The notes below the pieces were generated by a model. It made no database searches. It was given only the letters and a program-made list of their open reading frames with translations, and was not told the origin of the DNA. Position numbers and translations under genes: made by a program. Below, in pieces: positions 6,114 to 18,811 of a stretch of 38,751 nucleotides of DNA; positions within the stretch are counted from its first letter, which is position 1; every line of letters starts with the position of its first letter. Location: NCBI GenBank assembly GCA_944358255.1, contig CALVQQ010000005.1, positions 1 to 38,751 of the forward strand. Reading direction: 5' to 3'. The stretch comes from an uncultured Bacilli bacterium. GTDB lineage: Bacteria; Bacillota_I; Bacilli_A; RF39; UBA660.

Positions 6114-7547
6114 TTAACCCTTTCTAACGTGATTATTTGATAAATAAGATTTTCTGAATTTTAAATGTCTTAAATTTCTTCTGATAACAGCATTTCCTTG
6201 TGCTTGCAAATCAAATGGAGCAAATGGAGATAAATAAGATTTGCCATAACTTTCAATTGTGCACAAATTAATTAAAAGAAGAGTACAACCAACACAAAAA
6301 CCAACTATACCAAAAACCAACACAAATATTAAAAGCATATATCTCCAAAATCTAATAGGAGTTTGCATTTCCTGAAATACAGATAAAAGACTAGTAATAG
6401 ATGAAATAGCAACAACTATTACAACTATTGGTGAAATTAAACCTGCGTTAACTGCTGCATCGCCTAAAACTAATGCACCTAAAATTGATAAACTTGTGCT
6501 ACTTGAAGATGGCGTTCTAGCATCACCTTCATATATTATTTCAAATACAAATAGAAGAATGCATAGTTCAACAATAGTAGGAAAAGGAATATTATTTCTT
6601 TGTGCAGCAAAATTAATTATAAGACTAGTAGGAAGAATTTCCTGGTCATAAGTCAGTAAAGAAAGAAATAAAGCTGGCAAAATAATTGAAGTAAAAAAAC
6701 TTAAAATTCTAATAATTCTAACAAAAGTTGCAAAAAAAGGTTTTCTATAATAATCTTCATTATTTTGAAAAAAATTAATAAAGAAAGTGGGTAATAATAA
6801 GACTTCAGGTGAATTTTCCATCATAACAATAATTTTTCCATCTAAAAGATTTTTAGAAGTATCATCTGGTTTTTCACTTACAATCATTGTAGGAAAAAAA
6901 GTATAATTTTGATTTCTAATTAACTCTTTTATATAATTTATATCAAAAACACCATCAATATCTATATCCTCTATATCTTTAATTATTTTATTAGCAACAT
7001 TTATATCGCAAATATTACCCATATAAATCACTGCAACTTTACTTTTAGATTCTCTACCTACAGTTAATTCTTCAATAATTAAATCTTTAGATTTGACACG
7101 TTTTCTAATAAGACCTAAATTAGTGTTATAATTTTCATTAAAGCTATCTTTAGGCCCACGAGTAACAGGCTCACTTGTAGGGGGATTAACACCTCTATCA
7201 ATACTTGCTCTTGTTTCAAATGCTAAAAATGTTTTATCGTAAATAATAACAGTAAACCCACTAAATAAAAAATAGAGCAAATTGTCAAAGTCTTTTATAG
7301 TTTTTTTATTAATACCAGGAACAAATTGTTGTAAATCTTTATTTATATTAATATTTTTCTTTGCGCTATTTCTTTTATTACCAAAAAATTTTAATATAAA
7401 ATCATTAATTCTATCTGTACTACATACAGTTTCAATTGCTACTACATAAACAGTGCTAAAAAAGCCATAACTTAATTCTTTTATCATTAAATCTGGCATT
7501 GTTTTCTTTAATTTATATAACTTTCTCAACACATCTTTACTGTTCAT
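6114..7547 (-). CDS. spore germination receptor A subunit (GerAA/GerKA family)
   Basis: First gene of the ger operon, 477 residues from the chosen start. The N-terminal soluble domain ends with the family signature E-T-R-A-S-x-D-R-G-V-N-P-P-T-S-E-P-V and then R-G-P-K-D-S-F-N-E-N, with T-N-L-G-L-I-R-K-R following. The C-terminal half has five to six membrane helices. The frame stays open upstream to 7640, but that would overlap the divergent methyltransferase gene and its promoter and adds a non-homologous hydrophobic stretch, so I took the ATG at 7547. No convincing Shine-Dalgarno precedes it, so the exact start is uncertain. Expression is expected in the forespore under sigma-G, but I could not see a clear sigma-G promoter. 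Confidence 0.9.
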   Translation of the reverse strand: MNSKDVLRKLYKLKKTMPDLMIKELSYGFFSTVYVVAIETVCSTDRINDFILKFFGNKRNSAKKNININKDLQQFVPGINKKTIKDFDNLLYFLFSGFTVIIYDKTFLAFETRASIDRGVNPPTSEPVTRGPKDSFNENYNTNLGLIRKRVKSKDLIIEELTVGRESKSKVAVIYMGNICDINVANKIIKDIEDIDIDGVFDINYIKELIRNQNYTFFPTMIVSEKPDDTSKNLLDGKIIVMMENSPEVLLLPTFFINFFQNNEDYYRKPFFATFVRIIRILSFFTSIILPALFLSLLTYDQEILPTSLIINFAAQRNNIPFPTIVELCILLFVFEIIYEGDARTPSSSSTSLSILGALVLGDAAVNAGLISPIVVIVVAISSITSLLSVFQEMQTPIRFWRYMLLIFVLVFGIVGFCVGCTLLLINLCTIESYGKSYLSPFAPFDLQAQGNAVIRRNLRHLKFRKSYLSNNHVRKG

Positions 7548-8693: not shown

Positions 8694-8791
8694 TCATTAT
8701 AAAATATAATAATTTAGCAGATTTATTTATATATATTAAATTAATAATATTATTTAACTAAACAAATAATTAATGAAAGTAGTTGATATTT

Positions 8792-9331
8792 ATGGAATAT
8801 AGAAAAGCAATAATTAGTGACATTAACTGCATAGCACAACTTGTTACGGATTTGATTGGATCTTGTAACATTAAATCTAAAAAATCAATATTAGAAACTA
8901 ACATTGAAGATATAACTAAAGATATAAATAATTATTATATATGTATTATTGATGGTAAAATTGTAGGAACTTGCGGAATAAGCAATGTTATAAAATCCGA
9001 TAAATATAATTTGAATTTAAAGAATATCAGAGAAATTTTATATTTAGCTGTAGATAAAAAATATCAAGGTAGAGGTATCGGAACAAACTTATTAAAATTG
9101 TGCAGTTGTAATAATAAATATGACATCCTTTATGAGGCATGGGGTGACAATGGAAAATATGTAAATTCTAAATTTATTTTAAAAAAATGTGGATATGAAT
9201 TAATTAAAAATTTAGGAAATAACTATTATAGAAAAAATAATTATTGCCCTAAATGTGTAAATAGAGATAAAAATTGTAATAAATGTATTGCTCAAATTTG
9301 GATTAAACATAAATATACAAACCTCTGCTAA
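8792..9331 (+). CDS. GNAT N-acetyltransferase with C-terminal four-cysteine motif
   Basis: A 179-residue GNAT protein: N-terminal substrate half, central strand I-L-Y-L-A-V-D, and the acetyl-CoA loop Q-G-R-G-I-G at 92-97. The C-terminus is unusual: residues 152-165 form C-X2-C-X6-C-X2-C, a potential zinc or iron-sulfur site, followed by a short basic tail ending in Cys. Other cysteines (13, 25, 51, 61, 104, 106, 133) make the whole protein cysteine-rich. I chose the ATG at 8792 because GNAT homology begins there; a TTG at 8783 is an alternative. The ribosome binding site is weak (GAAAG). Function beyond acetyl transfer is unknown. Confidence 0.78.
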   Translation: MEYRKAIISDINCIAQLVTDLIGSCNIKSKKSILETNIEDITKDINNYYICIIDGKIVGTCGISNVIKSDKYNLNLKNIREILYLAVDKKYQGRGIGTNLLKLCSCNNKYDILYEAWGDNGKYVNSKFILKKCGYELIKNLGNNYYRKNNYCPKCVNRDKNCNKCIAQIWIKHKYTNLC

Positions 9332-9482: not shown

Positions 9483-9518
9483 ACAAATAAGAAATTTATT
9501 ATACGTACAGGTGGTAAA

Positions 9519-10544
9519 ATGAACTATATAGAGAAAGCCAACAACGAATTGAAAGAATATTTTAAAACATTAGAACCAAATTTTCCGGAGTGGTTAAATG
9601 AGTATATTGAGACAAAAGAACTTTTATCTCAAAAATATATAAGTATAACATGTGGGACAATATATTCTGATTTATTCGAAAGCAAATTTTTCTTTTCAAG
9701 TTTAGATCACTCAATAGCAGTTGCATTAATAGTGTGGCATTTTACTCATGACAAAAAACAAACTATAGCAGGGCTCTTCCACGACATAGCAACGCCGGCA
9801 TTCAAACACTGCGTAGATTTTTTAGATGGAGATTATATGAATCAAGAATCAACAGAAGACTTAACATCCGACATTATTAAAAATTCTAGTGACATTATGA
9901 AACTCTTAAAAAGAGATGAGATAAAACTTTCTGAAATAGATAATTATCACTTATATCCAATTGCTGACAATGATACACCAAAATTATCAGCAGATAGATT
10001 AGAATATTCGCTATCAAATGCATTATTTACTTATAGATTATTAGAGAAAAGTGTAATAGAAGAAATTTATAATGACATTGAAATTCAAAAAAATGAAAAC
10101 AATGAAATTGAATTAGGATTTAAAACAAAAAGAATAGCGAGAGAATTTGTTAAAGTAACTAGCAAATTATCAATAATATATAGAGAAGACAGGACAAGAT
10201 ATTCAATGCAATTTATTGCAGACATATTAAAAAAACTTAATGAAGAAAACAAAATATCTAAAAAAGATTTATATGAACTCAAAGAAAGTGAAATAATAAA
10301 CATAATTGAAAAATCCAAATACAAAAAAATATTTAATATTTGGAAAACTGCCAAAAAAGTAAAAACATCAAAAGAAGAACCCAAAAATGTATATTATGTT
10401 AATCACCCAGCAAAAATTAGATATATTGATCCATTATTAAATGGAAATAGAATTTCAAAAAAATGTAAAATTGCAAAAAAAATGATAGATAAAAATCTAT
10501 CATATGATATGAATAAATATGTTTATTTAGATTTAGAAATGTAA
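9519..10544 (+). CDS. HD-domain phosphohydrolase family protein
   Basis: A 341-residue soluble protein with an HD-type metal-binding domain in the first half. D-H-S-I-A-V-A lies near residue 67, followed by the H-D pair in G-L-F-H-D-I-A-T-P-A near 88, and a downstream S-A-D-R-L-E-Y with the distal aspartate near 159. This layout resembles deoxynucleotide triphosphohydrolase-like and YfbR-like HD proteins, so a nucleotide or phosphoester substrate is likely. The C-terminal third is helical and lysine-rich and not assigned. AGGTGG precedes the ATG. The next, frameshifted gene starts 12 bases after the stop, so the two probably form an operon. Confidence 0.75.
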   Translation: MNYIEKANNELKEYFKTLEPNFPEWLNEYIETKELLSQKYISITCGTIYSDLFESKFFFSSLDHSIAVALIVWHFTHDKKQTIAGLFHDIATPAFKHCVDFLDGDYMNQESTEDLTSDIIKNSSDIMKLLKRDEIKLSEIDNYHLYPIADNDTPKLSADRLEYSLSNALFTYRLLEKSVIEEIYNDIEIQKNENNEIELGFKTKRIAREFVKVTSKLSIIYREDRTRYSMQFIADILKKLNEENKISKKDLYELKESEIINIIEKSKYKKIFNIWKTAKKVKTSKEEPKNVYYVNHPAKIRYIDPLLNGNRISKKCKIAKKMIDKNLSYDMNKYVYLDLEM

Positions 10545-10556
10545 AAGGTGTAATGT

Positions 10557-11464
10557 ATGATAAAAGAAGAAAAATACCAAAAAATTGAAAATTTTTTTAA
10601 AAAAGACTTAGAAATAAAGCAAATATTAAATACAATAATACCTACAGAGGCAGATTTTTACGATGAAGAATCTAAAATAAGATATACAGATAAATTAATT
10701 AAAGAAATCAATAAAATTGCCTTTTTAATACAACAAATTATTAACGATTTTAATATTCCAGACCATATAAAAGAAACATTTGCAACTAAAATTAAACAAA
10801 TAGAACAAAACATAAACGGAAGCGAATTTTATAATACTTTAAATCAAGGATTATTAAAAACATTACAATATATTAAAAGTAATATTAGCGACTTAAGACC
10901 CGAATTTGTAGATTCAGTTAGAAAAGGATTTAAAGGATATTATTTATTTTATGGTGAAAATGTTGAAACACCTATAACGATTATGAATTTTTACACTATA
11001 TACATAGCTACATAATAAACAATGAAAAATTTTATGAATACGTACCTGAAATTAAGAGTAAAAAAGAAAATGAAACAGATGAATGGGAGGGAGTATTTTT
11101 AAGAGGGAAAACAGACGAACCTGGAGAAAAATTATTTGATGAAATTTTAAAAAATAATATAAATAGTGATAGAATAGACATATTAAGTTTGACAGACAAA
11201 ATATTATTAATGGCGCGCGACTTAGGCCATGCGACAGTATTAGAAATTGATACTACAGATAAAGAAAAAATATTTGTAAGATATTTTATACCTAAAAACA
11301 ATAATACAAATATGACAGCAAATTTAAAAGGAATAAACGTAAATAAGTCCGAATTTGCAGTTGGAGATTTTTTAACAAATAAAGAAAATTTTTCAAATGA
11401 TATAATAACTCTTATAAAGGGAATTGCAACAGATCTAGATATGGAAAAAAATAATAATTACTAG
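10557..11464 (+). pseudogene. unknown protein interrupted by a -1 frameshift (two open segments)
   Basis: The first segment (10557-11015) is open in one frame and then stops; a second frame is open from about 10991 to the TAA at 11464 and continues smoothly. The switch falls at a run of five T at 10988-10992. One extra T, or a -1 slip on the Phe codon, joins them into a single protein of about 302 residues. Neither part shows a domain I recognise. The whole looks soluble and alpha-helical at first, then mixed. AAAGGTG precedes the ATG, and the gene follows the HD gene closely. It may be a sequencing error, a recent mutation, or translational frameshifting; the intact reading beyond the break argues against old decay. 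Confidence 0.7.
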
Positions 11465-11493
11465 TAAACCAAAGCATTAAAAGGAGAGTAAAA

Positions 11494-12186
11494 ATGAAAA
11501 AAACATTAAAAATAATTTTATTAATAGCATTATTTATAGTAATAATAATAAGTTCACTAGTTATATGGGATTTAATTCAAGAAAACAAATTAAATGAGGA
11601 ACTAGAATACATAAGTGAACTAACTAATGCAGAAAAAATTGATGTCGAAGAAATCTATAAAGTATTAAATCGAACAATTACAAAAGGAGATTACGAAGAA
11701 GTAGAAAAATCCTTTAAAAACTATTTAAAAGATAATTTTGATAACACACTTAAAATTGCAGATATATTAAATGATGAAAATTTGATAAATATTTTAACAG
11801 TTGAAAATTATTTGAATGATGGTAAAGATTTTATAAAGTCAAAGCAATATATAGAAGATACAAAAAACAACCTCACAGAATACAAAAATGTATACTTAGA
11901 ATTTTTTACTGAAGAAAAAGCAATGTCGTATATAAATGACAAAAATTTAGACAAATACTATATTGAATTATATAGAGAAGAATATGTAGGAGATATAGAA
12001 TATGATAATGGAACAGAAGAAGTAGAAAAATCTTTAAATGAAATATTAGATATGCTAAATATTTATGAAGAAGTTATTAACATGTTATCAAATAACCAAA
12101 ATGCGTGGGAAATAGTTGGAAAAAATATAGTTTTTGATGATACTGAATTATCAAATAAATATGATGAACTAATCAATAAATTGTAA
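11494..12186 (+). CDS. hypothetical membrane-anchored protein (230 aa)
   Basis: A single hydrophobic helix at residues 5-26 after a short basic start (M-K-K-T-L-K) acts as signal anchor; no lipobox cysteine follows. The remaining 200 residues are very acidic, rich in E, N and Y, and predicted mainly helical, so they should lie outside the membrane. I recognise no family. AAGGAG stands 8 bases before the ATG. It is 29 bases after the frameshifted gene and may share its transcript. The gene after it has its own promoter. Confidence 0.7.
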   Translation: MKKTLKIILLIALFIVIIISSLVIWDLIQENKLNEELEYISELTNAEKIDVEEIYKVLNRTITKGDYEEVEKSFKNYLKDNFDNTLKIADILNDENLINILTVENYLNDGKDFIKSKQYIEDTKNNLTEYKNVYLEFFTEEKAMSYINDKNLDKYYIELYREEYVGDIEYDNGTEEVEKSLNEILDMLNIYEEVINMLSNNQNAWEIVGKNIVFDDTELSNKYDELINKL

Positions 12187-18163: not shown

Positions 18164-18811
18164 ATGAAAAATAGCAAAGTTGAAAAATATTGCCTATTAT
18201 TTACAATATTCATATTTGGAAGTTTTATTGGATTTATTTTAGAGAATTTCTATGTAATCATAATAAAAAATGGATATTTATTAAGAAGGAGTTTAATATA
18301 TGAACCACTTATACCAATCTATGGGATAGGTGCTTTAACAATGTATTTTCTATTAAAAATTAAGCAAAAAGAAAATAAATATTTAATACTTAAAATATTT
18401 ATAATAGGTTTTATAGCTGGAAGTACAGTAGAATATATTTGCTCATACATGCAGCAAAATATATTTGGAACCATATCGTGGGATTACTCAAAAAAAATGT
18501 TTAATTTAAATGGCAGAATTAATTTGTTTCATTCTATTCTATGGGGATTATTGGGAATACTATTTTACTATTTAATCTTGCCAATGATTGAACAAATTAA
18601 CATAAAAAGCAAAAAAGTCAAAGTACTTTTAGTAATAATATCTTGCATTTTTGTAATTGATTGCACAATTTCAGCGTTAGCCTGTTACCGACAAAAAGAA
18701 AGAAGAGAAAACTCAATTGCAAGTAATAAAATAGAAGTCTTATTAGATAAACATTATCCAGACGAATTTTTAAATAAAGTATACAATCATGCCAGAATTC
18801 CTAAAAATTAA
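18164..18811 (+). CDS. CmpB-like putative ABC transporter permease (ABC_trans_CmpB family)
   Basis: A 215-residue membrane protein with about five or six helices. Family hallmarks are visible: an N-terminal helix ending in G-F-I-L-E-N-F-Y; the loop R-R-S-L-I-Y-E-P-L-I-P-I-Y-G-I-G-A; a helix ending in E-Y-I-C-S-Y; then W-D-Y-S and a N-G-R-I-N-L segment before the next helix. The family name implies transport but the function is not established. AAGGA precedes the ATG, 10 bases after the MBL gene. A new promoter follows, so this closes the transcript. Confidence 0.82.
   Translation: MKNSKVEKYCLLFTIFIFGSFIGFILENFYVIIIKNGYLLRRSLIYEPLIPIYGIGALTMYFLLKIKQKENKYLILKIFIIGFIAGSTVEYICSYMQQNIFGTISWDYSKKMFNLNGRINLFHSILWGLLGILFYYLILPMIEQINIKSKKVKVLLVIISCIFVIDCTISALACYRQKERRENSIASNKIEVLLDKHYPDEFLNKVYNHARIPKN

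Follow-up and report, generated by a model that had tools for sequence, protein, structure and literature searches.

A recently broken or mis-assembled accessory gene, not a programmed frameshift, in the genome of an uncultured Bacilli bacterium

The gene at positions 10557 to 11464 of the window (the whole stretch of DNA that was analysed, 38,751 nucleotides) is an ordinary gene that has recently been broken, or mis-assembled, and it is not a site of programmed ribosome slippage. The probable explanation is that a single base was recently lost just upstream of a run of five T (T5) and that this loss inactivated an ordinary accessory gene in the lineage of the window. The window differs by one base from three relatives, the relatives carry the gene as a single frame, and the residues at the junction are conserved. 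We infer that the cell truly lacks this base and that the resulting product has no function. The broken gene is located on contig 5 of an assembly of 878,055 bases in 52 contigs that is 95.45% complete, and the G+C content of the window is 26%.

The broken gene lies on the forward strand and consists of two open frames. Frame A, the 5' part, extends from 10557 to 11015 (152 codons, with the ATG at 10557 and the stop codon at 11013-11015). Frame B, the 3' part, extends from 10967 to 11464 in the -1 frame (165 codons counted from the frame edge, with the stop codon at 11462-11464), and the two frames overlap by about 47 bases. By homology, frame A corresponds approximately to residues 1-142 of the intact relatives, and the homology of frame B to the relatives starts at about 10985. 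None of 20,000 first-order Markov sequences built from 11013-11464 kept frame B open, so frame B is not explained by chance, and the earlier observation that the frame stays open for more than 150 codons past the break is upheld. A second control identified wrong-frame runs of at least 149 codons inside frames of at least 200 codons in 45 of 21,716 cases, a count that takes in runs into neighbouring genes and on the other strand; the Markov control was relied on for this reason.

The gene was found in three of five genomes of the same genus (G002, G003, and G004), and in each of them it is a single frame that measures 302-303 codons when counted from the first ATG. No match to the broken gene was found in the other two (G001 and G005). 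Both halves match this one continuous gene, which bears out the preliminary description of a gene of about 302 residues that is split by a -1 frame change and is otherwise intact. The indel is private to the genome of the window, with intact orthologues in G002, G003, and G004, and the collections searched yielded no other genome of the species.

The missing base had been placed within T5, and the comparison with the relatives does not agree with this placement. The single alignment gap against G002, G003, and G004 is one base long and lies a few bases 5' of T5; in blastn it falls at 10984, with G003 and with G002 alike. The frame-break site is therefore given as 10980-10987 on the forward strand, where the window is one base shorter than the three relatives in both the DNA alignment and blastn. 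T5 itself (10988-10992, forward strand) is the earlier proposed slip site and not the break point. It is the sole run of at least five T within 10967-11015, it also has five T in the two closest relatives, G002 and G003, and the relatives read it in the register equal to frame B of the window. Since the run is unchanged in length and is read in frame B by the relatives, the lesion does not lie in T5. The T count in homologues, which had been proposed as a check, is thus five in G002 and G003 as in the window, and given this shared count, six T in the reads are not what an error would be expected to show. All 30 aligned homologues pass the junction in frame, where the 30 rows had been selected as single frames (29 of the 36 family matches described below, and G004). 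The junction motif is conserved among them, with Asn in 30/30, Glu in 28/30, and the two His in 29/30 and 30/30.

The ratios of nonsynonymous to synonymous divergence (dN/dS) are low in both halves of the gene. Against G003 the two halves have values of 0.21 and 0.12, the corresponding values against G002 are 0.24 and 0.11, and the range across the three relatives is 0.11-0.32. This range indicates that the intact gene is under purifying selection, and since it is low in both halves, any loss must be recent. An intact gene combined with an assembly error would show equally low values in both halves, which counts against the reading as a mutation. The gene is dispensable, because it is unmatched in two of the five relatives of the same genus and is matched in only 36 of the 386 genomes in the family sample. 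Under the reading of a recent mutation, one base would have been lost just 5' of T5 in an accessory gene of 302-303 codons. Translation from 10557 would then enter out-of-frame codons for about ten residues and stop at 11013-11015. The predicted product would be 152 residues long and would lack the C-terminal part, which carries nine of the ten invariant residues of the family.

An assembly or sequencing error, in which the cell carries an intact gene and the consensus lacks one of its bases, is a possible although less probable explanation. Both the conservation of frame B and the purifying selection on it agree with this explanation, and mixed strains in the mosaic stretch described below could have misled the assembler. 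The nearest-relative records (L008 and L009) are metagenome assemblies of uncultured Bacilli, and the coverage labels of these related contigs are only 6.7 and 5.5. It has been reported, in part of the published account of GeneTack, that BLASTp-validated frame transitions that are singletons are expected to stem from sequencing errors and not from indel mutations (PMC3711429). Another report attributes many apparent pseudogenes to assembly artefacts and calls for high coverage (PMC11017572). The gap, however, lies outside any long homopolymer, G003 shows decay by substitution in an accessory gene nearby, and the broken gene is the only case of its kind in a census of frame breaks.

The census sampled 20 stretches of the window's own genome (396,745 bases) together with the window, and these were compared with 20 stretches of G003 together with its contig 3. 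Frames of at least 150 codons that aligned over at least 90% of their length with at least 80% identity were considered, and a frame was counted as intact when one counterpart frame covered at least 85% of it. Only one of 162 G003 frames had a counterpart in the window's own genome that was not a single frame, and that counterpart is the broken gene. In the reverse direction, one of 165 frames was broken in G003, which is the accessory acetyltransferase that carries a stop by substitution. With one of 162 broken, the assembly is not generally riddled with indels; a generally error-ridden assembly is rejected on the counts in the two directions. A first census had flagged 12 of 146 frames in one direction and 11 of 141 in the other. 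Ten of the 12 and ten of the 11 flags start at query positions 10-62 of stop-to-stop frames and were taken for untranslated leaders. The flag that remained beside the broken gene was the pair L117/L103 at position 367-368, which was flagged in both directions. On the window's own contig, our reading of the blastn list identified the broken gene as the sole uncompensated frame-breaking gap inside a gene. The other gaps on the contig are paired, are multiples of three, are intergenic, or lie at the ends of genes.

The stretch around the broken gene is diverged from G003. The synonymous divergence (dS) against G003 is 0.37 and 0.24 for the two halves of the gene and about 0.02 for the TrmA, HD, and FtsX genes. 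The divergence peaks lie at 10600-11300 of the window (82-95% identity) and at about 18200-18500 (83%), and the contig near the broken gene is otherwise mostly 97-100% identical to G003. Positions 10800-10900 are nearer to G002. From the aligned sequences, these peaks look as if recombination had made the stretch a mosaic.

A GNAT acetyltransferase gene, two genes upstream of the broken gene at 8783-9331, is intact in the window. Its counterpart on contig 3 of G003 (L069) has 99.3% DNA identity and carries a premature stop by substitution. With the acetyltransferase broken in G003 and the present gene broken in the window, both genomes show gene decay in this stretch. Both broken genes sit within three adjacent genes that have no match in G001. 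Two breaks among three genes absent from G001 suggest the decay of dispensable genes, and this is a post hoc observation. When positions 9495-11476 of the window were compared with contig 11 of G001 (reversed, about 6350-6430), no match was found to the HD-like gene or to the broken gene. About 80 bases in G001 separate the matching promoter-like leader from the ribosome site of the next gene. The downstream gene in the window (11494-12186, forward strand, 230 codons, with a hydrophobic N-terminus) keeps its match in G001. The preliminary description had listed a recent mutation, an error, and programmed frameshifting as options. The first two are retained, with mutation favoured by the census and by the decay of the neighbouring gene, and the third is not.

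The one-base loss could also be a real allele of an accessory gene that is switched off in part of the population, with a rare slip on the nearby U_UUU producing traces of a near-full-length protein that carries two changed residues. Such a leaky rescue by chance is very unlikely.

It is still less probable that the two frames are two genuine separate genes with frame B translated on its own. Low dN/dS is kept in both halves, as this arrangement would also have it, but the first ATG, GTG, or TTG in frame B is the TTG at 11189 and its first ATG is at 11210. Since frame B has no such start before 11189, it is not an obvious separate gene, and a start at either position would drop the Asn-Glu/His-His motif. 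No two-gene arrangement at the junction was found among the aligned relatives. The two-gene reading is thus rejected, since frame B lacks an early start and no aligned relative is arranged in this way.

Programmed -1 frameshifting on U_UUU at 10988-10991, which would yield a short protein and a full-length protein, is the least probable explanation of all. The tetramer is in the right register and tRNA-Phe could re-pair after a -1 slip; in part of the study of PMC4066793, U_UUU is one of the six most shift-prone tetramers given a strong pseudoknot, and frameshifting on U_UU.U is clearly higher with one. Tetramers of the Z_ZZ.N type without a stimulator, on the other hand, gave a mean of 0.147% in Escherichia coli against 0.112% for controls without the motif, as given in the same part of that study (PMC4066793).

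No stimulator was seen around the junction. Folding without pseudoknots identified no fold that was better than shuffled sequences at 10994-11093 (z +1.52, with 192 of the 200 shuffled versions equally or more stable), at 10970-11060 (z +0.46, 133 of 200), or at 10940-11040 (z +0.76, 153 of 200). No element similar to a Shine-Dalgarno (SD) sequence was seen by eye in 10951-10990. No frame change at the junction was found among the aligned relatives, and in the split copies of two other genomes of the family (G071 and G226) the breaks lie at different family positions. The relatives read T5 in the other frame, and a slip there would place Met-Asn where the family has Asn-Glu. The broken gene resembles the dnaX and IS3/IS911 transposase types in having two overlapping frames in a -1 relation with U_UUU in the overlap. 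It differs from them in having no conserved shift and no stimulator that was seen, and in that the break is not at U_UUU but a few bases 5' of it. The programmed slip at T5 proposed earlier is rejected on the single frame of the relatives, the lack of a seen stimulator, and the weak motif; the aligned intact relatives need no shift and the base is missing elsewhere.

The broken gene, as a recent mutation or an error, was also compared with reported frame breaks. It resembles the GeneTack singletons in being a frame change that is validated by homologues, is private to one genome, and has no recoding signal found; it differs in nothing of substance, and its family is unnamed in the libraries searched (PMC3711429). 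It resembles the compensated indels of Buchnera and Blochmannia in occurring in a small (878 kb), AT-rich genome with the indel near a T run. Those cases, as part of their report describes them, involve long poly(A) runs and transcript slippage, whereas the run here is only five T (PMC5009743).

The intact gene adjacent upstream (9519-10544, forward strand, 341 codons) is similar to HD-domain genes, and its Pfam HD score of 16.9 bits is below the curated cut-off of 22 bits. Its dN/dS is 0.10-0.28 across the three relatives. It matches 135 of 372 family genomes and belongs to a widespread, patchy family of its own. Some relatives of the HD-like protein in other genera are 77-82% identical, and this identity across genera suggests that the HD-like gene may have been transferred laterally. 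No HD neighbour was detected outside the genus with the HD profile at the family loci L033-L062 (flanks of up to 1500 bases). The 13 genomes outside the genus that were found by eye to have both genes carry them on different contigs (11 genomes) or at least 5 kb apart (G061 and G249). The neighbours of the family copies elsewhere presumably encode Ffh, TyrS, ParB, Fpg, and AddA. An operon with an HD phosphohydrolase had been proposed; the adjacency was found in this genus only and not in most genomes, and the HD match is below the cut-off. With the adjacency found only in the genus, the operon gives no functional clue.

The protein had been described as matching no known family, and this holds for Pfam, NCBIfam, PADLOC, and PHROGs, none of which gave a family name for the broken gene; the queries for PADLOC and for one of the Pfam and NCBIfam searches were the two window halves only. 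Among 27 members of the family, five Pfam models matched at E 0.01, each in a single member, and none matched in more than one. No family match was found in PHROGs or among plasmids, and none of 264 pattern stretches in viral contigs was confirmed as a member. The PDB sequence matches (36 sequences at E up to 1) are confined to the helical N-terminal part. They are syntaxin and other helical chains besides designed coiled coils, for which the best E is 1.2e-7. Confidence in the predicted structure is low, with a mean pLDDT of 55 and residues 124-240 below 50. The conserved motifs of the family are N-E-x-x-H-x-x-H and M-x-R-D-x-G-H-A.

The family sample was searched with profile A1, which was built from G002, G003, and G004. 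The 36 matches consist of 29 aligned one-frame copies, the copies in G138 and G243 (one frame each, 289 and 303 codons), the split copies in the window's own genome, G071, and G226, and the copies in G091 and G099 that are cut by contig ends. With a profile of 27 members, 25 of 288 genomes in the order sample matched, and in the class sample seven of 395 matched, all inside the family. Five of 392 genomes in the phylum sample matched, and those outside the family matched weakly (G435, E 2.3e-4; G712, E 9.8e-4). A copy in G807 from the order-level search, with one stop inside the match, is one frame of 292 codons. The split copy in G071 (L077 1287-2253, contig 64) has a frame change in the opposite direction at about family position 185-210, and that in G226 (L135 640-1505, contig 28) breaks near family position 44-51 and is also a -1 change. 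With a separate site in each of the three genomes, the breaks look like independent accidents, although those in G071 and G226 may themselves be errors. The split copy in G226 leaves the balance between mutation and error unchanged. A frame of 2432 codons on contig 4 of G833 (L081 3429-10724) contains a full internal copy of the family. No Pfam match above the cut-off was found for this frame, which looks like a large multi-part secreted protein in its layout.

In an annotation the gene needs a label as frame-broken, or a check against the reads, and should not be listed as a recoding candidate; the break has little significance beyond that. The by-product of this work is an unnamed family of proteins of about 300 residues that is patchy in one family of uncultured Bacilli and is broken at three sites in three genomes. 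The 2432-codon frame of G833 could be a better route to the function of this family.
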